Source: Hyaloraphidium curvatum (taxonomy: Eukaryota > Monoblepharomycota > Hyaloraphidiomycetes > Hyaloraphidiales > Hyaloraphidiaceae). From it: DNA of 64,000 nt. Below the pieces are notes generated by a model. That model worked only from the letters and a program-made list of their open reading frames with translations, was not told the DNA's origin and searched no databases. The position numbers were made by a program, and so were the translations under genes. The DNA lies in NCBI GenBank assembly GCA_025558095.1, contig JAIVFI010000039.1:1-64000 (forward strand), read 5' to 3'. Within the stretch, counting starts at the first letter, position 1, and every line of letters starts with the position of its first letter. This document shows, one piece after another, positions 32,393 to 50,701 of the stretch.

Positions 32393-32395
32393 CTA

Positions 32396-34915
32396 GATGA
32401 CGGGAACCAGTTCCCGCACGTGCTCCACGCCCACACCCCGGGCCGAGGTTCGAAGACCAAGCATGGCGTCCAAGGGGCCCGCCGTGAGGTTGAGTGAAGA
32501 CAGGTAAGCCGCCGAGGCCACCTTCTCCGATGACAGAAGCCCCATCCCCGAGTAGTGCAGACCCAAGAATACCTGCTCCCGCACAGTCCGACCCTCCACC
32601 GACAGCGGATCCAGATCCTCGGCCCGATCTCCCAGCAAGCGCAAGAAGGTGGTGAAAAGCGCGTTGTCAAGACGTCGAGCAAAGGGTTGGGTAACCGAGG
32701 GGGGGAGAATGCGGAGCCAAAACGAGAAGAGCTGGGTCACACAGAGACGGAGGAGGGAGTACAGGCCCTGGAGGGAGGGGATGTCGGCCGGCATGGCGTA
32801 GCCGAGCGCAGCGCGCTCGATTTCATCGAGAAGAGCGGCAATGGAGTCGATCTTGGCCGCGAGGAACGACTCCACATAGGCAGGGGTGCCGACCGGGGCA
32901 CCTACCACCTTGAGGCCGCACGAGCGAGCGAAGTCAGGCGAGCCCGGGGCCGACGCCGTGGCATGCACCTCGGGGTCGGCCTCGTGAGGCGGGAAGCCAG
33001 CGACGCGGATGTTGTGGGCCGCACCGGCCGCGCGCACCCGCTCCAGCACGGCCGGGTTCGTCGAGAGCGAAAGCAGGTAGCTCTTGTCCGGGCGGTGGGT
33101 CATGCCGAGGGAAGCAAGGCCGTCACGCACCTCTCCCAGGACGGCCATGACCGAGTCCAGCGGCCCGACCACGGTGAGGTCGTCGAGGTACCCAAGGATG
33201 AGGCAGTCGGGGTGCCCAGAGCGGATGGGCCGCAGCATGTGGCTCATGGCGCAGGAGAAGATGGCAGACGACAGCGGGTCGCCCTGGATGTTGCCCTCGT
33301 ACATGGTGATCCGGAAAAGGAGCTCCGCCGAGCGCCGGTCGCGGAAGTAGGCGTGGGAAGGGCGCGAGTAAACGAGGTTGTAGTACGGGATAAGCTGGGG
33401 CACCTGGCGGACCACCTCGCGCGCGAAGAGGCGGCGCAGCGTATTTAAGGCGTTCCTAGAGTCGACCTTCATGACGACGTGGTCGGGGAAGGCCGCCAGC
33501 CACGCGTTCACCGCGTGGGCGGTCGCCTCCGCGCCCCCGTCCACCCCGTGACCCAGGTCCTCCTGCTGTTGGAGCTTCCGCAGAAGAGCCTTGTGCCGCA
33601 CGGCCAGGTACGAGCCTGCTAGCCGCGTGATGCCCTCCATAATGCCAATCGGCCGGAGGCCCCCCACCGGCTTGAGCAGAGGGACGAGGATTTGATCCGT
33701 GAGGAGCGGCCGGAGCATGGGGGTGTCGAGTCGGCCAGTGCACACGCCGTGCACCATGGCCGCCAGCGGGCGGAGCTTCCGCCGCGTCGCGTCGTTCTCG
33801 CAGTTGTGCACGATGAAAAGTTTGGCCATGCTGAAACCCGACATGCCGGCCCCCACGCCGTCCTTCTTCCGGCGCAACCGGGCCCAGATGTCCTCCAGGA
33901 AAGCCGCGTCCGTGTAGGCAGGGCAGGGCGCGGGCGCGTTGGGGGGCAGAGACAGCCGACACAGCGGCTCTCCCTCCCGCGGCCCCGGGTACAGCTCCTC
34001 CAGTTCCGCCTGCAGCGTGGGCGTGAAGCCAGCCGGAACGGCCTCCCCCGAGAGCGCCGCGGACGCAGCACCAGGAGCGCCCTTCAAGGCGGCAAGCACG
34101 ATGGCCTTGAAGAGCTGGTAGTTGAGCGGCCGCAGCCCGTCCCGCCGCGCGCCCCGGTTGACCTGACGGGCGGCGAAGTAGTTCTGCTCGTACATGTAGT
34201 CCCCCGACATGACGTAGCCGCCAAACGCAAGGTAGGCGGTGAGAGTGCGGTGCAGGTCGGTTTCCGGTGCCGCCGGGTCCTCGTAGGCCCGTTGGAAAGA
34301 CTCGCTGGCCCGGAAGGCGAGCGTGCTCCAGGTGGTGGTCCGGTAGCGGTGCTTCAGCGGCTCCGGCGGCGGCGCCCCCGCGCCCCCGCCCGGCGGCGGA
34401 TCAGGCCCGGGACCCCCGGGTGGACCACCGTCGCCTGGGTCGCCCGGATCACCGCCGTTGCCGTGCCCGCCAGCCGCGGCGTTGCCGCCCGGCGCGCCGT
34501 CGCCGCCTGGGGGATCACCGCCGTCCGGGGCGGCACGCGCCGCCGCCGCCGCCGCCGCCAGCGCCGCCCGTTGCGCCTGGACGTCCTGCGGGGCGTCGGC
34601 CGCAACCCGGGCGGCCGCAAGGGCCGCCATCAGCGCGGGCGCGGGTGGCAAAGCACGGGGAGATGCCGACGATGCCGCCGGTGACGCCGGTCCCTCCGCG
34701 CGTCCCGTGGCAGCCGCCCGCTCGGCACGCACGCGGTCGAGGAACTCGACGAGATCGGGTGGAAGCGAAGCTAAAGAGACGCCGAGTGGCGGGTTAGCTG
34801 CGTCCGGGTTGCACGAGGTGTGCTGTCCAGAAACACCGGCACCAGAGCCGTTTGCGGCGTAGGGACGCCGGCAACCCCCGCACCGCGCGAGCCCCATGGC
34901 GCGCAACGCATCGGC
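32396..34915 (-). pseudogene. Retroelement ORF3, reverse transcriptase portion
   Basis: Continues ORF3 after the insertion (ALRAMGLARCGGCRRPYAA). Ala/Gly/Pro-rich linker, then RT motifs in order: LLKPVGGLRPIGIMEGITRL (block 2), HVVMKVDSRNALNTLRR (motif A, catalytic Asp), EGNIQGDPLSSAIFS (motif B) and LGYLDDLTVVG near 33190 (motif C, YxDD). The thumb region runs to ELVPVI and an in-frame TAG at 32393-32395. RT catalytic residues are all present, so the RT was active until the insertion and the stop. The frame continues past the TAG into the endonuclease. Confidence 0.82.
34911..34915. repeat. Target-site duplication, left copy (TCGGC)
   Basis: TCGGC abuts the left terminus. The matching copy is at 40544-40548. 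Removing one copy plus the element joins the retroelement codons SAD and ALRAMG in frame. Confidence 0.8.
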
Positions 34916-35688
34916 TGGGAGAGCGGTAGTGGGAGAGAGAGAGACCACGGCAGGCTTACGCCAGCCGGCCCGCTGTGGTCCAGCGGGCTCGGAAAGATGG
35001 TCTTGTGGCTGGCCTTGTCGACGTGGACCTCGTCTTCCCCGTCTTTGTACCCTCTCCCGCAACTTGCTAAGCAAAGTGCTTAGCATCTTGCTTAGCTCTT
35101 TGTTTCTTTCTTTTCTTGTTCTTCTTTTCTCTTCTTTTTCTTCTTTCCTTATCACTAAATGCTCTTGGTTGGCTATTGGTTGGGTTATTGGTTGGGTTGT
35201 ATATAAGAATTGGTCGGGTTGGCTGGGTTGGTCGGGTTTTTCTACCTTTGGCTCTGTTACAAACTTTTTTGGCCTTTCATACCCTACTCCCTCTTTATTC
35301 CCACTCTAACTCTGAATAACCCAGCCAACCCAGCCAACTCAACCAACTGCTTTTTCTTCCCTTTTCTTGCTTCTTTTGTTCTTGCCTCTCTACTCCTTCT
35401 AGCTTTCCTTTTACTACCCTCTTTTGACCCAACCTTTACCCATCCAACCCAACCAATTCACTTCCTTGCCGAGTGTGCTGCTTTTACTCCCATAGCGCTT
35501 CGCCCAACCACCTAGCCTTTTCTCCCTTTCCCCGCCACTCTTTCCCCGCCACCCTTTCCCCGCCACCCAACGGAACTTCGTTCCTACCACATGACTCAGC
35601 GAAGCTGTTACACCCAACCACGTGGTTTGGCGTAGCCATTTCTCCCTTTCCCCACCACCCTTTCTCCCCCTACCCACCCCGCCTCCCA
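34916..35688. repeat. Left terminal inverted repeat
   Basis: Starts TGGGAGAGCGGTAGTGGGAG. Contains a palindromic CTTGCTAAGCAAAGTGCTTAGC-type cluster near 35065-35090, and a run of GGTTGGGTTGGCTGGGTTGG-like pentamer repeats. Homology to the right end stops after CCTCCCA at 35688. Confidence 0.9.
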
Positions 35689-35844
35689 TATGGCTTCGCC
35701 AAGTCACCTTTGTTTTGACGTAGTCATTTACTTCGTGAATGTTTGTGCTTGATGAATCTAGAAGGGATACACCAGAAGATACTTGGAGTGAAGGATTTGA
35801 AGATTCAGACACTGAAATCTAAAATAGAAAGTTTCTTCGCCAAT

Positions 35845-37444
35845 TCACGTAGTCGTTTCGTCGTTTTGCTTAGCAATCCCCCTCTCTTTTTCTTTTTCAA
35901 GTTGCCTTTGTTTTTTCATGCTCGCTTCTTTCTCCTGCTTTATTAGGTCTGCAATCAAAACATACTCTGAGAGCACGAGTCAAATCTGATGACACCACTT
36001 GAATTGCAACCAAGTTGCTTACCTTGAATCTTTGGTGGGTTTGGTTTTGCTCGTGCAGAAACTTTATACTTGTTCCACTTATAGCTGTACATGTCCAAAA
36101 TCAAACTGAAATGTCCTTTGTAGTTTCCTTCTTCGTCTTGTCTTGGGCAAATGTCTTTGTAAAATCGTCCAGTTTCTTGGGGAGAACAGGACATCCAGTC
36201 TGGAGTTGAAGATCTTGCCGTACATGGTCCAAAACATAGAACAAGATCGTGGAATCCACGGTGAAGTAAGCCCGTTTCCAGTCGTACAAAGGACACAGTG
36301 TGAATTTTCGATCTTGGTTGGTTTCTTGGTCACGAAGCTGAGCAAGAAAATGAATCCAAGCGAAGTGATTCGAAAACCAAAGGTAATCGTCGTTTGCTCC
36401 TCCAGTCATGATTCCACCTTGGTCTTTGCGATGAGGGTCCACCCTCCCGAATCGATGTCGCAGATCTTCAATGAACACCAGAGCGGCTTCCAAACATCCG
36501 TCCGGCCAGGACGTTTTCTTGAGTGCCGGAAGGGAGAACATGGACGCTTTTGGTGCGTCCTCATTGGCTGGGGGGGCAGGATGTTCCATGTCCTCCGCTT
36601 TGCGCTTCTTGGTCTTCTTGCGCTTCATCACGTCCAAGCCATCGATTTCACCTACAGTGACAAAGGTGTAAATGGCCCATGCAAGCTTGCTCTGTTGCCA
36701 TGAAGGCATGGAAGTCCAAGTCTTGCCAAGCTCGATAGAAAGCATGGTCTTGAGCCAAGACACAGTCCACTTGCCAATATTGTAAAGAATATGCCGTTTC
36801 CAAGCAGCAGAGTATTGCCTGCGGACAGACTGTGTGACTCTGAAGACAATTTGATTCGACAACTGTTGACAAGACTCAGAATCCCCAGGCCAAGAAGCCC
36901 TTTCATGGGTAGGAAGGTAATGCTGAGAGAAAACCACAGGAGCAAAAGGATGAAATTGAGCAAGAACCTGTTTTGGTTCTGCAAAATCATTGGTGGAAGG
37001 CTTGTAAAAGGCTTTGAAGAGGTTGTCCATGCACGAGTCTTTGACAGGGCGAGCAGCGAGATGCGCAGGAGTGATGCGCGACAGAAAGAGTTGAAGGAAT
37101 CGTGTAGCTTCGAACCGCGCGCGTGAAGTTGCATGCATGATGCAACGCAGGAGGTGGGAAACAGGGATATTTTTGGAAAAGCGATGGAAGTTGCATTTCC
37201 AAACAAAGGTTCGGTAGTCAAAAAACCCATTTTCAGAATCTCCATAGTCACGGCCCCTGGCTTTGAGGCTCCTTGACTGAGGACAGTATGAAGAGTAAAA
37301 AGTGGCATGGCCAGCGTGTCCACAGGTAGAACAGGATTTTTTGAGGTCAGGTCCAAAGAAAGTGGTTGGACCAGAACTGGACCCAGACCCAGACCCAGGA
37401 GAATGGGAGGCCATGGCAGGAAGAGGTGAAAGCAGAGAGGTCAA
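35845..37444 (-). CDS. TIR-element gene 1, putative zinc-binding nuclease or transposase candidate
   Basis: A 447-codon frame from 37444 to 36101 opens with a Ser/Gly-rich leader and a possible zinc site (CSTCGHAGHATF, YCPQS), then WKCNFHRFSKNIPVSHLLRC, a long helical region (AWKRHILYNIGKWTVSWLKT), a nuclear-localisation-like KRKKTKKRKAED, and KFTLCPLYDWKRAYFTVDST near the end. The last 25 codons overlap a second frame that is equally good (FSLILDMYSYKWNKYKVSA) and leads to a textbook intron (36022-35949, GTAAGC to TTGCAG) and a Lys-rich last exon to a TGA at 35845. How the two frames are joined is unclear. The combination of size, zinc site and position makes it the best candidate for the mobility protein. 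Confidence 0.5.
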
Positions 37445-37563
37445 GCTGTTTTTATGTCAAAATGTGGGCAGAGAAAAGAGGATTTGGGAAAGTGAACCGA
37501 AATTCGAAGAAATCGGGCTTCTTTTCTTTGCTGATCACTATTTTTCCGGATTCCTAGTATTAA

Positions 37564-38769
37564 ATGGCATATGTGCCTTCATATACAGACTTTGTCAGGG
37601 GAAAACTGATACCCAGAACCAATGACTTAAGTGCAATCTATCACAAAGGACCAAAGGCTTTTGTTGACTCACACCTTGATGCCGATCTAATGTTTCATCG
37701 CAAAGAAAACGAAACAAAAGAAGAGGAAAGAGAAAGAAAGTTGGCTTTTACGGTGGGCTATTCACGCGCTGCTCTGAATGCCGCCAGAACGATGGGTTCC
37801 GAAATGATTGGCAAGTATGTAAAAAGACATCCCGAACCCACCTCTGAACCACATGAGCTTACTCCAGAAGCCAAGGACTTCCGAAAAGGACGGCCTGGGT
37901 TGATTTTAGTGAAAAACTACGAAACAAACACAAATGAGAAAACGGAAGGTTATGTTTTCCGGCATAAACTTCTCTCTGGAGATTGGATTACCAAAAGTAC
38001 AACCGTAGGTCACAGCCTCGTATACTTGGCACCCGTCCCTTCCTCCAAAAACACGTTTTCCATCCTGGATTGCAATATTGAGCCTGGGTGCCAATATCAA
38101 CAAAAAACCACTCCATTCTTACATAACTTCACAATTGTCAGGTATGTTGGACCCGGGTTTGAAAAGGTGCGCACCTGCCTCAGAGCTGTTGGATTACATG
38201 CCACATTGGATCCTAGGAAGGGTCTGCCCCCTGAGTTTAAGCAGCAATTAAGCCACGAAGAATCCCCCACCATTCCTTATCTTCTCTCTGCATGTCAATT
38301 GCTTGACCAACATTTCGCACCCTATGCTTGTGAGGTCGCTTACACAAGGGAAACAAAACAGATCCAAGATCTCTTTGACGTAAATGCTACCGTTGCTGAG
38401 TTTTTTGAAATGATTCGGGCTTGCTTTGTGTTTTTCCTTGATGTTTATGTGCATAACAAACTGTCAGACCCAGCTTTTGCAAGTGCATTTGTCAAAACTG
38501 GCTTCCATGAGTTCAAAAAAAGGAACCAAATGATAGCAAAGTCGGCGTCTTGTGCCCAGTTTGTCATTCTTTTATATCAAATAGCCATAGGATTCTACCT
38601 CTACGAAGAAAATGGGGAAAACTTTCGGGTCTCCCAAATTTTGGACATTTTGCCGTTCAATGCTAAATACTGCTCACCCAAATATGTCAATGCATTTTTT
38701 GAAAAATATAGAGGCCCCAATTGGTTATTTTTCAAGGGGGATGTAGATGTTTCCAAATCACTAACATAG
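37564..38769 (+). CDS. TIR-element gene 2, unknown 401-residue protein
   Basis: Unbroken frame with balanced, AT-rich codon use unlike the host genes. Features: a charged N-terminal helix (ENETKEEERERKLAF), KGRPGLILVKNYETNTNEK-like basic segment, TIVRYVGPGFEKVRTCLRAV, YLLSACQLLDQHFAPYAC and a hydrophobic stretch FFEMIRACFVFFLDVYV. No catalytic motif or known family recognised. Divergent to gene 1 across about 120 bp, suggesting a shared promoter inside the element. Confidence 0.6.
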   Translation: MAYVPSYTDFVRGKLIPRTNDLSAIYHKGPKAFVDSHLDADLMFHRKENETKEEERERKLAFTVGYSRAALNAARTMGSEMIGKYVKRHPEPTSEPHELTPEAKDFRKGRPGLILVKNYETNTNEKTEGYVFRHKLLSGDWITKSTTVGHSLVYLAPVPSSKNTFSILDCNIEPGCQYQQKTTPFLHNFTIVRYVGPGFEKVRTCLRAVGLHATLDPRKGLPPEFKQQLSHEESPTIPYLLSACQLLDQHFAPYACEVAYTRETKQIQDLFDVNATVAEFFEMIRACFVFFLDVYVHNKLSDPAFASAFVKTGFHEFKKRNQMIAKSASCAQFVILLYQIAIGFYLYEENGENFRVSQILDILPFNAKYCSPKYVNAFFEKYRGPNWLFFKGDVDVSKSLT

Positions 38770-38940
38770 GGCTTACGCCATATATTGCTTCGCAAAACCA
38801 TATGACTTCGTCAAAACACAAATTGCTCCGCAAAATCACAAATATTGCTTCGCAAAAGCACGTGGTAGCACGAAGTGCGATGTGGGAAATGGCTACGCCA
38901 AAGCACGTGGTTGGGCGATCATACAAGAGGCATTCCATGT
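38770..38940. repeat. Subterminal short repeats in the TIR element
   Basis: Several copies of TGCTTCGCAAAA-like and CACGTGGTTGGGCG/CACGTGGTAGC-like units occur here, and related units (CACGTGGTTTGGCGTAGCC) in the inverted repeats near 35620 and 39830. Such repeats often bind the element's own recombinase. Confidence 0.6.
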
Positions 38941-39641
38941 TTCTTGCTACCTAGAAACTGGACCAATCGTTTCGCTGCATCCCGGTTGTCCCGATCCATG
39001 ATGCTTTCGAAGATAGCCAACAAGTCCTGTTCTTCTAAAGTTGCTGCTCCTTCAGGATGTGCATCGGGTTTTCTCAAATTCTTCAAAGCTGTAAGCGTGC
39101 CTTTAGTGATGTCCGTTGATAGCCCAAAATCTTTCAGTTCCTTTAGAATTCTGTTCAGTTCCTCACGTTGAACAGATGAAAGATCCTTTTTGGAACGCAG
39201 AATCTTATGGAACGACCATTCATCACCCAGTCCCAGCTGTCCAGCAATCCAATCATCGAACTTAAAAGCGACTTCACCCATGAAAAGTCGATTGGTCTGT
39301 CGTTCTTTGCTCTCCTCTAACCGTGCAACTCTTGCCGATAATTTAACCACATCTGCTTTTGCACTGGCAGCTTCGGCTGTAGCAGTGACAACAGCACCTC
39401 GCAGTTGCTTTCCAACACTGACTGCAGTTTCAACAGCACTCGCAAGTTCACTGATCCCTCCCCTCAGCTCATTGAGCGCTGGCCGCAGTTCGTGAGACGG
39501 TGGGATGTGTGCAACCCGAATGTGACCATCGTTTCCTTCACCGGCTGGGAACATGTTACTACCCTGAGCGAATTTAAACCGGAGATGTCGAGCGATCCGC
39601 AAAGCCTGGTCCAATGTATCCGCGTTGTCACTCGACGTCAT
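38919..39641 (-). CDS. TIR-element gene 3, coiled-coil protein
   Basis: 241 residues from ATG 39641; the longer upstream frame reaches into the inverted repeat and is not needed. SELASAVETAVSVGKQLRGA and AKADVVKLSARVARLEESKE form a coiled coil, followed by helical SVQREELNRILKELKDFGLS and ENLRKPDAHPEGA-like sequence, ending QFLGSKKHGMPLV. It could be an accessory DNA-binding or assembly protein; no family recognised. Confidence 0.55.
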   Translation of the reverse strand: MTSSDNADTLDQALRIARHLRFKFAQGSNMFPAGEGNDGHIRVAHIPPSHELRPALNELRGGISELASAVETAVSVGKQLRGAVVTATAEAASAKADVVKLSARVARLEESKERQTNRLFMGEVAFKFDDWIAGQLGLGDEWSFHKILRSKKDLSSVQREELNRILKELKDFGLSTDITKGTLTALKNLRKPDAHPEGAATLEEQDLLAIFESIMDRDNRDAAKRLVQFLGSKKHGMPLV

Positions 39642-39770
39642 CAAAAACGTTCGCAACAGCCACGGTAGCAGTGTCCGATAGGTGGAAACAATCCCTTCCA
39701 AACTTCGTTGCTTCGCAAAACAAATGTGGTTAGGACGAAGTCCTATGGTGGTAGCACCGAAGGTGCTCTG

Positions 39771-40543
39771 TGGGAGGCGGGGTGGGTAGGGGGAGAAAGG
39801 GTGGTGGGGAAAGGGAGAAATGGCTACGCCAAACCACGTGGTTGGGCGTAACAGCTTCGCTGAGTCATGTGGTAGGAACGAAGTTCCGTTGGGTGGCGGG
39901 GAAAGGGTGGCGGGGAAAGAGTGGCGGGGAAAGGGAGAAAAGGCTAGGTGGTTGGGCGAAGCGCTATGGGAGTAAAAGCAGCACACTCGGCAAGGAAGTG
40001 AATTGGTTGGGTTGGATGGGTAAAGGTTGGGTCAAAAGAGGGTAGTAAAAGGAAAGCTAGAAGGAGTAGAGAGGCAAGAACAAAAGAAGCAAGAAAAGGG
40101 AAGAAAAAGCAGTTGGTTGAGTTGGCTGGGTTGGCTGGGTTATTCAGAGTTAGAGTGGGAATAAAGAGGGAGTAGGGTATGAAAGGCCAAAAAAGTTTGT
40201 AACAGAGCCAAAGGTAGAAAAACCCGACCAACCCAGCCAACCCGACCAATTCTTATATACAACCCAACCAATAACCCAACCAATAGCCAACCAAGAGCAT
40301 TTAGTGATAAGGAAAGAAGAAAAAGAAGAGAAAAGAAGAACAAGAAAAGAAAGAAACAAAGAGCTAAGCAAGATGCTAAGCACTTTGCTTAGCAAGTTGC
40401 GGGAGAGGGTACAAAGACGGGGAAGACGAGGTCCACGTCGACAAGGCCAGCCACAAGACCATCTTTCCGAGCCCGCTGGACCACAGCGGGCCGGCTGGCG
40501 TAAGCCTGCCGTGGTCTCTCTCTCTCCCACTACCGCTCTCCCA
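39771..40543. repeat. Right terminal inverted repeat
   Basis: Inverted copy of 34916-35688, beginning TGGGAGGCGG and ending CCGCTCTCCCA. Open frames of 67 and 101 codons inside it are mirror copies of those in the left repeat and are not separate genes. Confidence 0.9.
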
Positions 40544-40548
40544 TCGGC
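40544..40548. repeat. Target-site duplication, right copy (TCGGC)
   Basis: Pairs with 34911-34915. The base before it in each flank differs, so 5 bp is the best length; 6 bp would need one mismatch. Confidence 0.8.
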
Positions 40549-40806
40549 AGACAGGCGCTGCATCGCCAACCAGTGCTCCGGGCTCCGTGTGACCCGAAGA
40601 TGACCGTCCCGTTTGTTTTTGTTTGGAGTTGGCTGGAAGCGGCAACCATCAACCGGGCACGCATGGAGGCCGGGTTCAGCAGGCGCCTCCGCCATCGGCA
40701 CATCGCCGTCGATGCAAGATTGGTGATGAAGAGATAGAGCTCCGATTTTGGCGAAAGCTGCCGCGCAGCGGTGGCAGCTGTAAGGCAGGAGCGGCGTGCG
40801 GCTCAT
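40544..40806 (-). pseudogene. Retroelement ORF3, N-terminal fragment with C2H2 fingers
   Basis: From ATG 40806: YSCHRCAAAFAKIGALSLHH then C is a C2H2-type finger, and HACPVDGCRFQP then H-rich sequence a second. Such fingers bind target DNA in R2-like elements. The frame runs into the inverted-repeat terminus at 40543. The rest of ORF3 resumes beyond the insertion at 34915. Confidence 0.75.
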
Positions 40807-45181: not shown

Positions 45182-45251
45182 ACGAATGGACGGGATAGAC
45201 GGATGTGAAGGCAGCACTGTTCGGCCCTTACTTGCTTGTCATGGCCCAACC

Positions 45252-46017
45252 TCATGACGACGCCGGGCACACCATGTCCATGGTCAGCACCACCCCCAGC
45301 GCCCTGAGCACCGTCCACGCGGCAAACACCGCCGTCAGCGCCGCCGCCGCGACCTTCCTCGCCAGGCTTCCCGTCACCCTCGCGCCAAACAGCCGCACCC
45401 CCGCATCTTCCACGTGCACCTCCTCCAGGTCGCGCAGCACGCGGCCGTGCGCGGCGATCCGGCGCGCGAGGGGCTGATGCGCCAGTGTGTATGCGGGGAT
45501 GCAGTTGCCCGTCGTCTGGTGCGTGGAAGCGGGGGTCAGTAGCTGCGGATCGCGGGGAGACGCGGGGGATACAGACGACGTAGACGACGATGGCGACCGC
45601 CTCGATGCCGTAGAAGACCGCCGCCAGCGCCGCCATCTGAGGCAGGATGGCGTCCTGCCGCCAGCGGGTTGCGAGGAGGGGGACCAGCGTCGCGTACCAC
45701 GTCTCGCGATCCGGCAGGTCGTCCTCGGCGGCAGTTCCCGCCGCCGTGTCGCGCAGCCGTCCCACGAGCGCCTCGAGCGAATTCCGAACGGCGCGGACGG
45801 TGAGCCGCCTCTCGAGCTCCCTCGCAGCGACGTTGTCCGTGAACCCCGCCCCCCCGCAGATGCTCGGTAGCTCGTTCTGCAACCTCACCAGCACCCACAG
45901 CACCCCCGCGGCGGCCCAGGCCGAGGACCATATTGTCCCGCCGAGGTGACAAGCGGCGTCCAGGCAGAAGGTCGCGAGGTAGCGGAAGGCGACGGCGAGG
46001 AGCAGCACGGACATCAC
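45252..46017 (-). pseudogene. Truncated paralog of the 49072 membrane protein
   Basis: FRYLATFCLDAACHLGGTIW, NELPSICGGAGFTDNVAARE, RWRQDAILPQMAALAAVFYG and, after an intron with donor GTCTGTATCC, TTGNCIPAYTL and ARVTGSLARKVAAAALTAVF match the full gene at 49072-50519 closely. The first 160 or so residues are missing, and about 40-50 residues present in the paralog between PAYTLA and PLARR are deleted (AYTLA joins QPLARR). Probably non-functional, although the retained frame is open. Confidence 0.6.
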
Positions 46018-46209
46018 CGCGGCACGCGCGAGGCCGGCTCGCCGGGGGATGGAGCCGGCGCACGACTAGCTGGACTTCGGAAAATCCCAATGTGCTCCGA
46101 ATAGACTCATGCACGTCTCCACGGCCCGGAGCTTTAAACAGCCGGTTCTTATGCCGTAGAGGATATCCAATCGCGCCCGTCTCTCCGGAACCGGGGCCGA
46201 TTCAGGCGC

Positions 46210-47136
46210 ATGAGGCTGCCCAAGGGCCCGGCGCCGCTCGGAGTCACGCTCGCCGCCTGCACGCTGCTGCTCCTCCTTTCCGTGCCGAATCGCGGCCCGC
46301 CGCCGCCGCAAGCGGGCAAGCTCGCCATCGTCGCCCTGCTCCGGCCGGCCCTCGAACCCCGGGACAACCTCACGGCCTTCTTCCGCGGGCTGGAGGAGCA
46401 CGTCCTGCCGCGGAACCCGGGGGACATACTGCTGTTCCACACCGGCGAGTACGCCGCGCGGCATGCCCAGGACGTCGTCAGGCGGCACACGAGGCTGCCC
46501 GTCAGGTTCGAACGCGTCCCCGAGGCCGAATGGGCGGTCCCCGCGCACCTCGAGGACCGGGCCGCGTGGAAGACGCCTTTCGGGGATGGATACCGGCTCA
46601 TGTGCCGCTGGAACCTCCTCCTCCCGCGCCTGCTCGGGCGACGGGGCTACGCGTGGATGCTCCGGCTCGACACCGACTCGGCGGTGCTGTCGCCCGTCGG
46701 AGACCTGGTCCGTCGGATGGAACGCGACGGCAAACAACATGCCTTCAGGCTTTGCGCGGGGGAGGCAACGTCTACGACGGAGATGCTCCCCGAGCTCGTT
46801 CGGCTGTGGGCCTCCCTGCGCGGCCTCTCCCCCGCGTTCTTCTGCTCCCTGTTCGAGCCCCCCTGCCGCGGCAAATGGCGGCCCGCGATGTTCTACAACA
46901 ACTTCTACCTCGGCGCCACGTCCTTCTGGCTCCGGCCCGACGTCGCTGCCTTCGTGGACTTTGTCGGCGCCTCGGGGGGCGTGGTTTCGCACCGGTGGGG
47001 GGACGCGCCGGTGGCGACCTTTGCGCTGGCGCTGTACGCGGCGCGGGACGAGATCCTGGAGCTGGAGTTTGGGTACAGGCACGGCGAGACGTTTGCGGAA
47101 GGGCGGACGACGTGCAGGGAGCACGGTTTGCTGTGA
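46210..47136 (+). CDS. GT15-type alpha-1,2-mannosyltransferase (KRE2/MNT1-like)
   Basis: 308 residues, single exon. Residues 9-26 (PLGVTLAACTLLLLLSV) are a type II signal anchor for the Golgi. GT15 landmarks: YAWMLRLDTDSAVLSPV near 152 (equivalent of the YYWRVEPD block), MFYNNFYLGATSFWL near 227 and VVSHRWGDAPVATFALALYA near 258 (the HRWGDAP signature). Function by family: adds alpha-1,2-mannose from GDP-mannose to protein- or lipid-linked glycans for wall mannoproteins. Shorter than yeast Kre2 (about 440), with a reduced stem. Such enzymes suit the Thr-rich secreted proteins in this window. Confidence 0.82.
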   Translation: MRLPKGPAPLGVTLAACTLLLLLSVPNRGPPPPQAGKLAIVALLRPALEPRDNLTAFFRGLEEHVLPRNPGDILLFHTGEYAARHAQDVVRRHTRLPVRFERVPEAEWAVPAHLEDRAAWKTPFGDGYRLMCRWNLLLPRLLGRRGYAWMLRLDTDSAVLSPVGDLVRRMERDGKQHAFRLCAGEATSTTEMLPELVRLWASLRGLSPAFFCSLFEPPCRGKWRPAMFYNNFYLGATSFWLRPDVAAFVDFVGASGGVVSHRWGDAPVATFALALYAARDEILELEFGYRHGETFAEGRTTCREHGLL

Positions 47137-47380
47137 GGGCTCAGCGGCGGCGTATCCCGAGCAAAACCCCGTCGACCTGCCTCGAAAAGGTGGAGGGTAA
47201 CCCATTGCAGATCTTCAGCCGCTCCTCTCGTTCCGAGCGACCGCGGATGGCTTCGTGAAGTTGGGGCCTACGTCATCGTCCCCTGCTTCGCCACACGGGT
47301 GTGACTCCCCAGGCTCCAACCAACAGTTCACGGCCCGAATGCCCCGCCCGCACGCCCGACCGCCTCTCTCGGCCGCGTGC

Positions 47381-48100
47381 ATGATCCTCCCGCCTGTCCT
47401 CGTGCTCCTCGCGGCCGCGCTGGCGGACGGTGCCCCCGCGCCGTGGGTCCCGAATCCGGCTCGCCGGGCGAGTCACATCGCTGAAAGCGCCCGTCGCCCC
47501 GGCCCTTCCGCCCGCAGACACGTCCTGATCCGCCGCTCGTGCGCGGACTGTTCCTCGGAATTCTATTGGTGGGCTCGGACCGGGATGTCGTCCTCTTTCC
47601 GCGCGGACTCGCTGACATGTCCATTCCTCCCTCGCGCCGTGTGCAGCGAATACTCCCACCCCGACGCACCCCCCGACACCGTCGCCTGCGTGCGCTACCC
47701 CGAAGAGGGCGGCCACCGCCTGCTGTACCGGTCCTACGGCGACCCGTGCGGCTCCTCGCCGTGCCTCCACGGGGGCACGTGCGTCCTGAGCGGCGCGCCG
47801 TCGGGGTACACCTGCATCTGCACGGAGCAGTATGCCGGGACCAACTGCGAGGTAGGCGGCCTTTCCCTGCCCGCCGTCGCGCTGCTGATGGCCTCTGCCC
47901 GCACCCGGCGCCGCAGCTTGCGAGCTGCAGCGGGGGATCGCAGATATGCTCCAACGGCGGCACCTGCGTCGGCAAGCTGTGCGTGTGCGCGTCGGGCTTC
48001 TCGGGACCTTATTGCCAGGTTGGTCTTTTGCGGTATCCGGGACGTGCGGGTGCTGACCCAGCTCATCCCGTCCCAGACGTACACTCCTCCGAGCAAATAA
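47381..48100 (+). CDS. Secreted protein with two EGF-like modules
   Basis: Exons 47381-47851, 47917-48018 and 48077-48100 give 198 residues. MILPPVLVLLAAALADGAPA is a signal peptide. A middle part with CADCSSEFYWW and CPFLPRAVC follows, then EGF-like module 1 (DPCGSSPCLHGGTC, then CICTEQYAGTNC) and module 2, on its own exon (CSNGGTCVGKLCVC, then GFSGPYC). Both keep six Cys, though module 2 has a short first loop. Possibly an adhesion or extracellular signalling protein. Upstream in-frame ATG at 47339 gives a longer leader and is not preferred. Confidence 0.65.
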   Translation: MILPPVLVLLAAALADGAPAPWVPNPARRASHIAESARRPGPSARRHVLIRRSCADCSSEFYWWARTGMSSSFRADSLTCPFLPRAVCSEYSHPDAPPDTVACVRYPEEGGHRLLYRSYGDPCGSSPCLHGGTCVLSGAPSGYTCICTEQYAGTNCEVGGLSLPAVALLMASARTRRRSLRAAAGDRRYAPTAAPASASCACARRASRDLIARLVFCGIRDVRVLTQLIPSQTYTPPSK

Positions 48101-48173
48101 GGACGACGCTGCCAAGCCGAACTGCTCGCCAGGTACCCTGCTTGTCTTTGTAGATGGAACGCGCAACATGGGG

Positions 48174-48962
48174 CTACCGCCCCGATCCCGGCGTCGCCCT
48201 CGCCCGGTTCCTCCTCGCCGACAATACCGTCGAGGTCGCCGCCTTCCTCGTCGTCAGACCGCTCCCCAGGATCGGCCTGAACCCCACGTAGTCCAGCACG
48301 GGGCAGTTCTTGGCGTCCTTGATTGCCAGGCTGCCCCGCTCCCCGAGCCGGCCGGTCACGTTGACGTAGTTGCCGTACGTGCTCACGAAGAGGTCCAACC
48401 AGCACCGGTACACCCCGATCCCCGTGTCATCCACCCGCCAGCACCCGTTGTGCCTCTTGGTCGTCCCGGGCACCCGCAGCCCCTTTGTCGGGGCCACGAA
48501 CACCACCGTCCCGAACGGGAGATCGTCCGACGCCGCCGACACCCACGGCACCAGCGGGTTCTCCCTCGACCCCTTGCCGTACGGGAACTTCTTCGGGTCC
48601 ATGACGCGGTAGCACTTTTTGTGCGGGTCGCCGTCCACCCAGCCGTCCACGTTGACGAGGCGCCCGTCGGCGAGGCGGCAGGTCCCCTCGAGCGAGCATT
48701 TCCGCGAGGTTTCGTTGGCCACCCGCGCGATGACGTTCGCGGGACGATCTGGGCGGGCGCACGTTTTCAGAGGGACGATACGGGGGCCGGAGAGGGGGCC
48801 GGAGTCGTCCAGGGTGCCCTCGACCGGGACCCAATAGGAAGTGAGGCGGACGGCGCCGGCTCGGCCAGAATAGCAGGCCGCGGGGGCCGCATCGCCTGGG
48901 GGCGCTGACACCGCGACGCCGAGCGCCAGGAAGAGCAGCAGAGAGGCCGGCGGAGGTCGCAT
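48174..48962 (-). CDS. Secreted 3D-domain (double-psi beta-barrel) protein
   Basis: 262 residues from ATG 48962 (a longer frame starts at 49082 but lacks a leader). MRPPPASLLLFLALGVAVSA is a signal peptide. VRLTSYWVP opens the fold; LPFGTVVFVAPTKGL, then NGCWRVDDTGIGVYRCWLDL match the 3D domain hallmark (three Asp near the barrel, DDTG and WLDL). This domain is common in bacterial cell-wall hydrolases (MltA/Rpf-like) and related to barwin and expansin barrels. Two N-glycosylation sites (NETS, NVTG). Role inferred: polysaccharide binding or cleavage outside the cell. Confidence 0.68.
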   Translation of the reverse strand: MRPPPASLLLFLALGVAVSAPPGDAAPAACYSGRAGAVRLTSYWVPVEGTLDDSGPLSGPRIVPLKTCARPDRPANVIARVANETSRKCSLEGTCRLADGRLVNVDGWVDGDPHKKCYRVMDPKKFPYGKGSRENPLVPWVSAASDDLPFGTVVFVAPTKGLRVPGTTKRHNGCWRVDDTGIGVYRCWLDLFVSTYGNYVNVTGRLGERGSLAIKDAKNCPVLDYVGFRPILGSGLTTRKAATSTVLSARRNRARATPGSGR

Positions 48963-49071
48963 CGGCGGCAGGGATGCGGCGCAGCGCGAACCGTCGCCAA
49001 CCGTCGATCCCTTGGTCCGCGACCCCGCCGTCTCCCAAGGCAACTCGCTCCACTCCTCGGAATCGCGCCCC

Positions 49072-50519
49072 ATGGAGGACACGCGCCCTGCGGAATATGC
49101 TCCTTACCCGGACATCGACGAGCGCGGCGGCGGAGCCCCCGTGAAGCCCCCCTTCGCGTTCCTTTCGGGCGACGAGCTACTGTGCCTGCTGCCCGCCCCC
49201 GTGGCGCCCGCGGCCGGAATCGGCGAGCCCGCAATCCGGGACCCGGCCGCACAGGCGCGGAATGCGCGGCCTCTCACCGCCAGCGCTGTCAAGGACGCGG
49301 TCGGCGCCACGGGGGACTCGCTGCTAGACGGCCTGACGCGCATATCCCTCGCCCTGGCCCCGTACTCCGCTCTGGCCCGCTTCCGCATCGGTCTGAGCAA
49401 TCTATACACCGTCGTCGTCATCGTTCCCTTCCTGTGGATTGCGGGGCTCCCTCACGGCTTCGGACGGCGCCAGCTGGCCGCGACGACCGCGGTGCAGATC
49501 CTGGAGTTCCTGTCCTACTCTTTCGTCCTCACCAGTATACGCTCGCTCTTCGGACGTGCCCCGGTCCCTCCTGCGCCGGCTCCATCACACACCGCGCCGG
49601 CCTCGCCCGCACCGCAGTCATCGTCACCCTCCTCCTGATCACAGCTTTCCGCTACCTCGCCTCGTTCTGGACCCCCTTCGTCACCCTCGGCGGGACCATG
49701 TGGTCCTCTGCCTGGGCCGTCGCGGGGGTGTTCTTCGTGCTGGCGCGGGTGCAGAACGAGGTGCCGTCCATCTGCGGGGGGGCGGGGTTCACGGACAATG
49801 TGGCGGCGAGGGAGCTCGAGAGGAGGCTGACGTTCCGAGCCGTCCGGAGGTCCGTAGAGGCGCTCGTGGGGCGGCTGCGGAGCATGGTGGCGGAAGAGGG
49901 CGTCGAGGAAGGCGACGCGAAGGGTTGCGAATCGTGGTACGCGACGTTGATGCCCCTGCTCGCAAGCCGATGGAGGCAGGACGCCATGCTGCCCCAGCTG
50001 GCGGCCCTGACGGGTGTCTACTTCGGCACCGAGGCCGTCGCCATCATCATCTTCATCGTCGGTATTCTTTTCCCAGCCTGCCCATTGCGCATTCGCTGAC
50101 GGTCCCCGCCCCAGACGACCGGCAACTGCGTCCCGGCCTATACCCTTGCCCTCCTCCTCACAGGCTGCGGCGTGTTCGCGAGCCCCCTCCTCAACGCGGC
50201 CTTCGGCAACGCCCGGATCACCCAGACCGCCACGCTCCTCCGCCAGGCATCTCTCTCCCTCGGCCGCCTTGAGCTATGTTGCACCGAAGCCCAGCAGCCC
50301 CTCGCGCGCCGGATCGCCGCGCACAGCCGCGTGCTGCGCGACCTCGAGGAGGTGCACCTCGACGGCGCGGGGGTGCGGCTGTTTGGCGCGCGGGTGACGG
50401 GCAGCCTGGCTAGGAGGATCGCGGCGGCGGCGCTGACGGTGATGTTTGCCGCTTGGACGGTGCTTAGGGCGATGGGGGTGGTGCTGACGATGGACATGGT
50501 GTGCCCGGCATCGGCGTGA
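49072..50519 (+). CDS. Multi-pass membrane protein of unknown family, full copy
   Basis: Exons 49072-49534, 49618-50057 and 50115-50519 (phases checked) give 435 residues. About six membrane segments: VVVIVPFLWIAGL, FLSYSFVLTSIIVTLLLITA (formed by splicing), MWSSAWAVAGVFFVLARV, MLPQLAALTGVYFGTEAVAIIIFI, ALLLTGCGVFASPLLNAAF and AAALTVMFAAWTVLRAM. Conserved loop SICGGAGFTDNVAARELERR is shared with the truncated minus-strand paralog at 45252-46017. An upstream ATG at 49012 is in frame but overlaps the promoter of the divergent 3D-domain gene. Function unknown. Confidence 0.65.
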
Positions 50520-50701
50520 GGGGTCACCGGGCGCGGATGCAGCGGACGGCTCCTAACGAGCAGAAGACACACGTGCATGTGCTCGGTGGAATGGCCATTT
50601 GCTATTCTGCATGTGCCCAGTTCGTGGATTGAGCCATGAAGTCCCGCCGGGCGCACCCCTACGGTTCCTGTTCCGTGCTGCCCACGACCTCGTCCCGGCC
50701 T

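Follow-up and report, generated by a model that had tools for sequence, protein, structure and literature searches.

The element described here most closely resembles Polinton-like viruses (PLVs) and virophages, the transpovirons of mimiviruses, and eukaryotic transposons that carry Fanzor1 proteins. As far as the accessible portions of the sources go, PLVs and virophages, such as the EMALEs of Cafeteria burkhardae and the PLV of Spizellomyces punctatus, have a low G+C content (GC), terminal inverted repeats (TIRs) of hundreds of base pairs, short target duplications (mostly 3 to 5 bp in EMALEs, and 5 to 6 bp in mavirus and Polintons), and primase-helicases. Transpovirons measure about 6 to 7 kb and carry TIRs and a helicase, with no capsid among the genes named in the available part of their description (PMC8877843). 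The Fanzor carriers named in the corresponding part of another report belong to the Mariner, Sola2, and IS4 groups, with TA, 4-bp, or 8-bp duplications (PMC3627910). Here, we describe a 5.6-kb element, E1, at positions 34916 to 40543 of a window that comprises the whole stretch of DNA analyzed (64 kb; contig C39, positions 1 to 64000) in the assembly of Hyaloraphidium curvatum (31.9 Mb; 55 contigs). This organism is a chytrid-related fungus of the Monoblepharomycota. E1 probably belongs, as a non-autonomous copy, to a small family of capsidless, low-GC, virus-like integrating elements with long TIRs and a D5 helicase, and was probably mobilized in trans.

The insertion of E1 is precise and recent. 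It interrupts the open reading frame (ORF) of a host retrotransposon that, judging by gene order, is of the non-long-terminal-repeat type. At least 35 matches to this ORF were found in the genome, and at least 26 of them (the interrupted copy included) cover the whole 468-aa query at 97 to 100% identity; the family was apparently active very recently. At least 13 matches have an open frame of 1318 codons. Five copies were fetched, and all five were unoccupied and ungapped through the site, with 98.9 to 99.6% identity over 524 to 535 bases and one TCGGC where E1 is flanked by two, as expected for the target duplication that the initial annotation had called. The exact unoccupied-junction string was matched in four of the five copies (the probe missed L062). 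Once E1 and one TCGGC are removed, the interrupted frame stays open through the junction. The precision and recency of the insertion follow from these near-identical, unoccupied paralogous copies, as does the order of events, in which E1 entered after the retrotransposon spread.

The inverted repeats of E1 have the 773-nt length that was initially assigned to them but are not quite perfect: the arms are identical at 772 of 773 positions and differ only at TIR position 697 (A/G), with the match ending exactly at 773 (Table 1). The GC of E1 is indeed far below that of its host (0.471, versus 0.684 for the remaining window); 1-kb bins within positions 35001 to 40000 range from 0.44 to 0.51, and those wholly outside E1 range from 0.60 to 0.77. 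The three predicted genes are supported as ORFs, since an open frame was kept in none of 2000 base shuffles of each. Third-position GC is 0.39 to 0.55 in nine element genes, versus 0.83 in the host reverse transcriptase gene and 0.75 in a homologue of gene 1 on contig C31.

Copies with matching ends, for which the initial annotation had proposed a search, exist elsewhere in the genome (E2 to E4), and those that are intact have 5-bp duplications. A pattern based on the first 20 bases of the end matched five sites, namely, the two ends of E1, those of E2, and the single left end that E3 retains; the reversed control matched none. The terminal motif TGGGA..GGTAGTGGGA is common to E1 to E4, with a variant end in E4 that misses the 20-base pattern. 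E2 (7.9 kb; C39:114562-122489) has arms that are 98.9% identical over 720 bp and a TAGAC duplication. E3 (C2, from 665986) is truncated and has only a left end, near which it resembles E2 in two blocks, one of 191 bp (95.8% identity) and one of 171 bp (94.7%); its right side merges into sequence repeated on C31. E4 (17.9 kb; C23:59024-76936) has exact arms (643 bp matched, 642 of them inside the element), ends reading TGGGAAAGGGTAGTGGGAAAG, and a CTCGG duplication, and GC is back to the host level at both of its ends. E5 (4.7 kb; C9:753546-758216), which has neither the E1-to-E4 end motif nor the box described below, ends in AGGCAGAGGCAG and is flanked by a TCCGT duplication; its arms are only 121 bp long at 88% identity, whereas those of E1, E2, and E4 extend over hundreds of base pairs. 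All four intact elements (E1, E2, E4, and E5) are thus flanked by 5-bp target duplications.

A 31-bp box of short palindromes, located 148 to 167 bp from the ends, is conserved in E1 to E4. Genome-wide, with up to three mismatches allowed, it was found at eight sites, all within E1 to E4, and the reversed-pattern control gave none. One of the eight sites is internal to E2 (L007:6757-6792; C39:119257-119292), and E2 may be composite or contain a nested end. The ancestry shared by E1 and E2 goes beyond their ends, because E1 holds a remnant of a gene whose frame is still intact in E2; the remnant sits between the left arm and gene 1, whose end it overlaps in a different frame.

The larger relatives, which the initial annotation had overlooked, encode a D5/SF3 helicase. 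The helicases of E2, E4, and E5 are mutually related: that of E2 matches Pfam D5_N (E = 4.3e-17) and NCBIfam primase_Cterm (2.9e-44), that of E5 matches D5_N (4.1e-19), and those of E5 and E4 are 52% and 48% identical to that of E2, respectively. No D5 helicase was found in the frames of E1 or E3. A genome search with the E2 helicase gave six matches and led to E4 and E5. In a phylogenetic tree of D5 proteins, E2, E4, and E5 fall in a clade of 15 (support of 100/99) with 12 database proteins, of which 2 are named from the chytrid Quaeritorhiza haematococci and 11 carry a Prim-Pol domain. In the neighboring clade of 29 (98/87), 25 proteins are annotated as AEP_C962R plus D5, and a viral metagenome whose longest contig is 430 kb gives its name to one of them. 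The tree has 64 rows, is midpoint-rooted for drawing, and carries a long-branch warning. Of the 67 sequences prepared, P0014, P0052, and C35 were dropped because of short aligned domains, and P0055 was left out; 7 of 16 distant viral loci were included, and E4 is represented by its L033 part only. A small ORF with the pattern C-x2-C...GHHxVP...C-x2-C is common to E3, E4, and E5, and E2 retains a relic of it (the last codons are kept). This ORF appears HNH-like by eye, and its match to Pfam HNH_2 is weak (E = 0.15, below the cutoff). E4 also encodes SET, N6/N4 DNA methylase, TspO, and DUF2177 proteins.

The other three matches of the E2 helicase search lie on C26 and C35 in long, host-like frames. 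These frames (L035:650-5641, L036:5662-9900, and L038:3977-9745) are 1413 to 1923 aa long and have D5_N matches (one below the cutoff), with Prim-Pol matches in two. They were considered as helpers and set aside: C26a and C26b fall outside the clade of the E elements, and 39.6 kb of C26 contains no inverted end repeats. Over kilobases, the C26 region is 93 to 94% identical to the C35 region, and another replicon-like repeat family seems to be present. Within E4, L033:931-4212 (C23) contains a 1445-bp internal inverted repeat at 99.2% identity with duplicated small ORFs and an older 79% duplication inside each arm, and C23:61001-64500, a stretch of higher GC (0.53 to 0.61) that holds a CCHC zinc-knuckle ORF, may have been inserted later. 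A weak HNH-like match at C27:176012-176221 (E = 9.2e-4; one internal stop) may mark another decayed member.

The subterminal TTCGCAAAA-type repeats listed in the initial annotation are real and more structured than was described. They are not one repeat but a constant CTTCG/CGAAG core with variable, complementary 3-base flanks, as in TTG-CTTCG-CAA, TGA-CTTCG-TCA, GAA-CTTCG-TTC, and GCA-CGAAG-TGC. With one TIR counted per element, fully complementary (3/3) flanks surround 10 of 23 cores in E1 (approximately 0.4 expected), 27 of 39 in E2 (where some copies lie in a local duplication), 9 of 14 in E3, and 10 of 57 in E4. The numbers of different stems are 8, 11, and 6 in E1, E2, and E3, and 4 and 3 in two pieces of E4. 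None of the 13 cores in E5 has such flanks, and elsewhere in the genome, five stretches give 6 of 243 (3.8 expected); these stretches are the better control, because the expectation assumes equal bases.

Several of these mini-hairpins lie close behind stop codons. For 7 of 23 genes, a hairpin is present within 100 bases after the stop, and in all 7 cases the nearest one (2 to 82 bases away) is C-TTC-G when read in the gene's own direction; the stop-proximal hairpins of genes 2 and 3 of E1 each read C-TTC-G in the sense of their own gene. The HNH relic of E2 is an eighth downstream case, identified by eye. After the HNH-like stop codon, E3 reads CAAC-TTC-GTTG and E2 reads TTGC-TTC-GCAA, with both sides of the stem changed. 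In Mimiviridae and Pithovirus, according to the available part of the source, transcripts mature at palindromes just past stop codons, the "hairpin rule" (PMC4402537). The hairpins of the E elements resemble these in position but have shorter stems of 4 to 6 bp and a constant TTC/GAA loop. They may equally well act in the DNA, as a cruciform or replication signal, as at transcript ends.

All frames of 85 codons or more in the fetched parts of E1 to E5, 148 in total, were scanned. No capsid, ATPase, integrase, recombinase, or transposase family (rve type included) was detected among them by Pfam (E ≤ 0.01) or PHROGs (E ≤ 0.001), and neither a PolB nor an RNA polymerase family was detected by Pfam, in agreement with the initial annotation, which had recognized no transposase, PolB, or integrase. 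The scan covers neither the terminal 89 bp of E2 nor spliced genes nor frames interrupted where two loci join, and spliced or very divergent capsids could escape it. Eleven Pfam families were detected: D5 parts, methylase, TspO, DUF2177, SET, zinc knuckle, and ankyrin repeats, along with a single, weakly matched membrane domain. PHROGs gave only primase/helicase/polymerase, methyltransferase, and unknown-function families; phrog_4210, called a DNA polymerase, matched one frame in the 1.8e-6 range alongside primase families. The largest ATG frame of E4 besides D5 encodes 314 aa (354 codons from stop to stop). An all-against-all comparison revealed no frame common to all members.

Gene 1 of E1, whose Fanzor-like identity had also been overlooked, is 58% identical to a copy on C31 (protein DFJ74DRAFT_687620 of H. 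curvatum) and 37% identical to a copy on C37. Two database proteins, P0057 (804 aa) and P0058 (743 aa), match it at 44% over 351 residues and 46% over 323 residues, respectively. Both extend beyond the gene 1 region into AIDPG and RDVNSARNI motifs and a cysteine-rich stretch, and they align to Pfam Cas12f1-like_TNB at 3.8e-3 and 1.5e-4, under the curated cutoff. Because they continue into RuvC-type motifs in the order published for Fanzor/TnpB in the accessible text (D, C4 zinc finger, RD; PMC3627910), gene 1 is, on homology grounds, the N-terminal half of a Fanzor-like protein. The RuvC half is absent from E1 and from 9.9 kb fetched around the C31 copy, and DNA cutting of the Fanzor type is therefore not expected of the gene 1 product. 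The C37 copy (L016:3882-7109) is a more complete Fanzor-like gene, with a RuvC-type half in the same frame past a stop or intron. PDB sequence searches yielded nothing significant; the Fanzor-related search ranked a PWWP protein first (E = 0.5), followed by a Cas12m chain (E = 0.56) that aligned over the RuvC-III/zinc-ribbon stretch. AlphaFold models had mean pLDDT values of 36.5 for P0057 (four-row alignment) and 34.2 for gene 2 alone.

For gene 2, none of 1620 candidates from a large protein database was a relative at E ≤ 0.1, and there was none elsewhere in the genome; no PHROG or NCBIfam family matched, and Pfam gave only a subthreshold match (DUF1652, E = 0.062). Gene 3 matched only itself in the genome, and no relative was confirmed in viral contigs; the large protein database was not searched for it. 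Its weak family matches (PHROG E = 0.017; NCBIfam, 0.02; Pfam, 0.12 and 0.23) are subthreshold and were disregarded.

The view that E1 is a non-autonomous, virus-like element, probable in our judgment, draws on the precise insertion, the 5-bp duplication, the common ends and box, the hairpins (weakly in E4), and the D5 and HNH-like genes of the larger members. An extrachromosomal form would be replicated by the D5 protein together with polymerases borrowed from the host or a coinfecting virus. An integrase provided in trans would then insert the element, leaving 5-bp duplications, and E1, without helicase and HNH genes but with intact ends, would be carried by the same machinery. Mobilization in trans is suggested because no frame is common to all members and no integrase was recognized. 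We infer an integrating enzyme and perhaps a helper virus. The hairpins beside stop codons may be 3'-end or terminator signals of element transcripts, and the Fanzor-like half protein is probably cargo.

Several observations weigh against this view. No integrase was found in any member, which leaves the joining step unexplained, and present-day movement and an extrachromosomal existence are conjectural for every element. The family amounts to five copies in a single assembly, and the membership of E5 rests on its genes, since it shares the D5 and HNH-like genes and the duplication length but not the end motif, box, or hairpins. The hairpin excess in E4 is small (10 of 57), and hairpins also occur within 100 bp upstream of 4 of 23 genes and inside 3 of 23. 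No Prim-Pol match was found in the D5 frames of E2 and E5 or in the fetched part of that of E4, unlike 11 of the 12 best relatives of E5, which makes the replication competence of E2, E4, and E5 themselves doubtful. An alignment-based scan of viral contigs for D5 gave 16 distant loci at only 22 to 27% identity, and single-sequence scans with the E2 D5 protein and genes 1, 2, and 3 confirmed no relative; with relatives this distant, the viral character is argued from gene type and composition and not from a known virus. PF04451 (capsid) and PF03175 (PolB) were silent in the host genome, so that no helper virus is in sight, but 14 control genomes were silent too.

Each of the described systems differs from the E elements. 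Compared with PLVs and virophages, E1 to E5 have no recognized capsid, ATPase, PolB, or integrase and are as small as 4.7 to 7.9 kb, and they have covarying mini-hairpins and, in E1 to E4, a conserved end motif and box. Transpovirons are associated with giant viruses, and their helicases are of the SF1 type; the E elements are chromosomal in a fungus and have 5-bp duplications, and their helicase type and other core proteins appear to differ from those of transpovirons. The Fanzor copy of E1 lacks RuvC, the ends and 5-bp duplication of E1 match no carrier group, and a D5-type family is not among the carriers named in the accessible text on Fanzor1. MULE duplications are 8 to 11 bp long, and the 5-bp duplication and the lack of a transposase match do not fit a MULE identity.

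The E elements could instead be deleted PLVs or virophages, whose capsid-bearing ancestors lost their morphogenesis and integrase genes; E1 would then have used the integrase of intact relatives absent from the assembly. The TIR length, the 5-bp duplications, the low GC in a high-GC host, and the helicase type fit PLV and virophage elements as portrayed in the available parts of three sources (PMC8547959, PMC12220804, and PMC7805220), and an integrated PLV has been reported from the chytrid S. punctatus. We nevertheless consider such an origin unlikely, though deserving of serious attention, since the same module is missing from all four intact elements and none of the 148 frames has a capsid, ATPase, PolB, or integrase match (spliced or very divergent genes could escape). 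Double-jelly-roll capsid proteins are usually about 450 to 600 aa, and the largest non-D5 frame of the 17.9-kb, exact-armed E4 is too short for an unspliced one. The clean ends, TIRs, constant duplication length, and precise insertion would also suit a new class of cut-and-paste transposons with 5-bp duplications and a transposase too divergent to recognize, and gene 2 is plausible in size and unlike anything known. However, genes 2 and 3 are confined to E1 and gene 1 is half a Fanzor-like protein, so genes 1 to 3 cannot be a family-wide transposase; no frame is present in all members, and the copies are few and internally unlike, not as an amplifying transposon would give. This makes the cut-and-paste explanation improbable. 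The initial annotation had left the choice between a new superfamily and a non-autonomous or virus-like element; relatives with matching ends speak for the latter. No transposase was recognized, and we classify the E1 family as virus-like integrating TIR elements and not as an established new superfamily.

Endogenized fragments of a giant virus (Nucleocytoviricota), of which the SET, DNA methylase, TspO, DUF2177, and D5 genes of E4 would be pieces, are suggested by the types of these genes and by the D5 clade that adjoins AEP_C962R proteins, one of them from a viral metagenome. Intact elements with discrete ends, TIRs, and 5-bp duplications are unlike random viral fragments, and the host-level GC beyond both ends of E4 also argues against such fragments, which we regard as a very improbable source. 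We give almost no credence to an integrated mitochondrial or cytoplasmic linear plasmid replicated by protein priming. Linear plasmids occur in fungi, and long TIRs would agree with one, but the 148 frames contain no PolB or RNA polymerase family, PF03175 is silent in the genome (as in the controls), and a D5 helicase is not known to be typical of linear plasmids.

Table 1. Features of E1 and of the interrupted host ORF (window coordinates)
Feature	Position	Strand	Basis or remark
Host target, 3' part: retrotransposon ORF with reverse transcriptase domain	32393..34910	-	Pfam RVT_1, 3.9e-08
Left target duplication copy TCGGC, 5 bp	34911..34915	.	Sequence; once in 5/5 unoccupied paralogous sites
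Left TIR, 773 bp	34916..35688	+	Terminal motif TGGGAGAGCGGTAGTGGGAG at 34916-34935
31-bp subterminal box TTGCTAAGCAAAGTGCTTAGCATCTTGCTTA, left copy	35064..35094	+	Conserved in E1 to E4
Three CTTCG/CGAAG mini-hairpins (35573, 35597, 35691)	35573..35701	.	First two within left TIR
Relic, 3' end of gene open in E2 (L007:5466-6068)	36018..36167	-	52% identity, query residues 130-182
Gene 1, 437 aa, putative Fanzor-like (TnpB-type) N-terminal half, without RuvC half	36101..37414	-	Sequence homology
Gene 2, 401 aa, no known relative	37564..38769	+	ORF
Four mini-hairpins between the 3' ends of the convergent genes 2 and 3	38785..38878	.	Core scan
Gene 3, 240 aa, no relative found	38919..39641	-	ORF
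Three mini-hairpins, gene 3 to right TIR	39708..39765	.	Core scan
Right TIR, 773 bp	39771..40543	-	772/773 versus left TIR
31-bp subterminal box, right copy	40365..40395	-	Genome-wide pattern search
Right target duplication copy TCGGC	40544..40548	.	Sequence; unoccupied paralogous sites
Host target, 5' part of same interrupted ORF, from first ATG of frame	40549..40806	-	Frame

Elsewhere in the window, positions 45250 to 50521 contain an inverted duplication with arms of 227 to 233 bp at 90% identity and approximately 500 bp at 78%.

No title or abstract opening describing these elements was found, in a search whose coverage excluded most subscription papers. Tentatively, the elements may form a class of mobile DNA that is new for the nuclei of zoosporic fungi, namely, long-TIR replicons that lack capsid and integrase genes and center on a D5-type helicase and an HNH-like nuclease. 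They would ride on a fungal giant virus, exploiting both its integrase and the hairpin-directed machinery that forms its mRNA 3' ends, which would account for the hairpins after stop codons, and would spawn small derivatives such as E1 with its half Fanzor. The location of E1 in a near-identical repeat family offers a clean unoccupied-site control, and hairpins with a constant loop and changing stems beside stop codons hint, in a way that can be tested, at an unusual mechanism of transcript ending or of replication. The D5 clade beside giant-virus-type primase-domain proteins points to a DNA virus of Hyaloraphidium, for which a search could be made. If our interpretation is correct, chytrid-type fungi would host a class of virus-like elements that is intermediate among transposons, transpovirons, and virophages and travels although it encodes no capsid.

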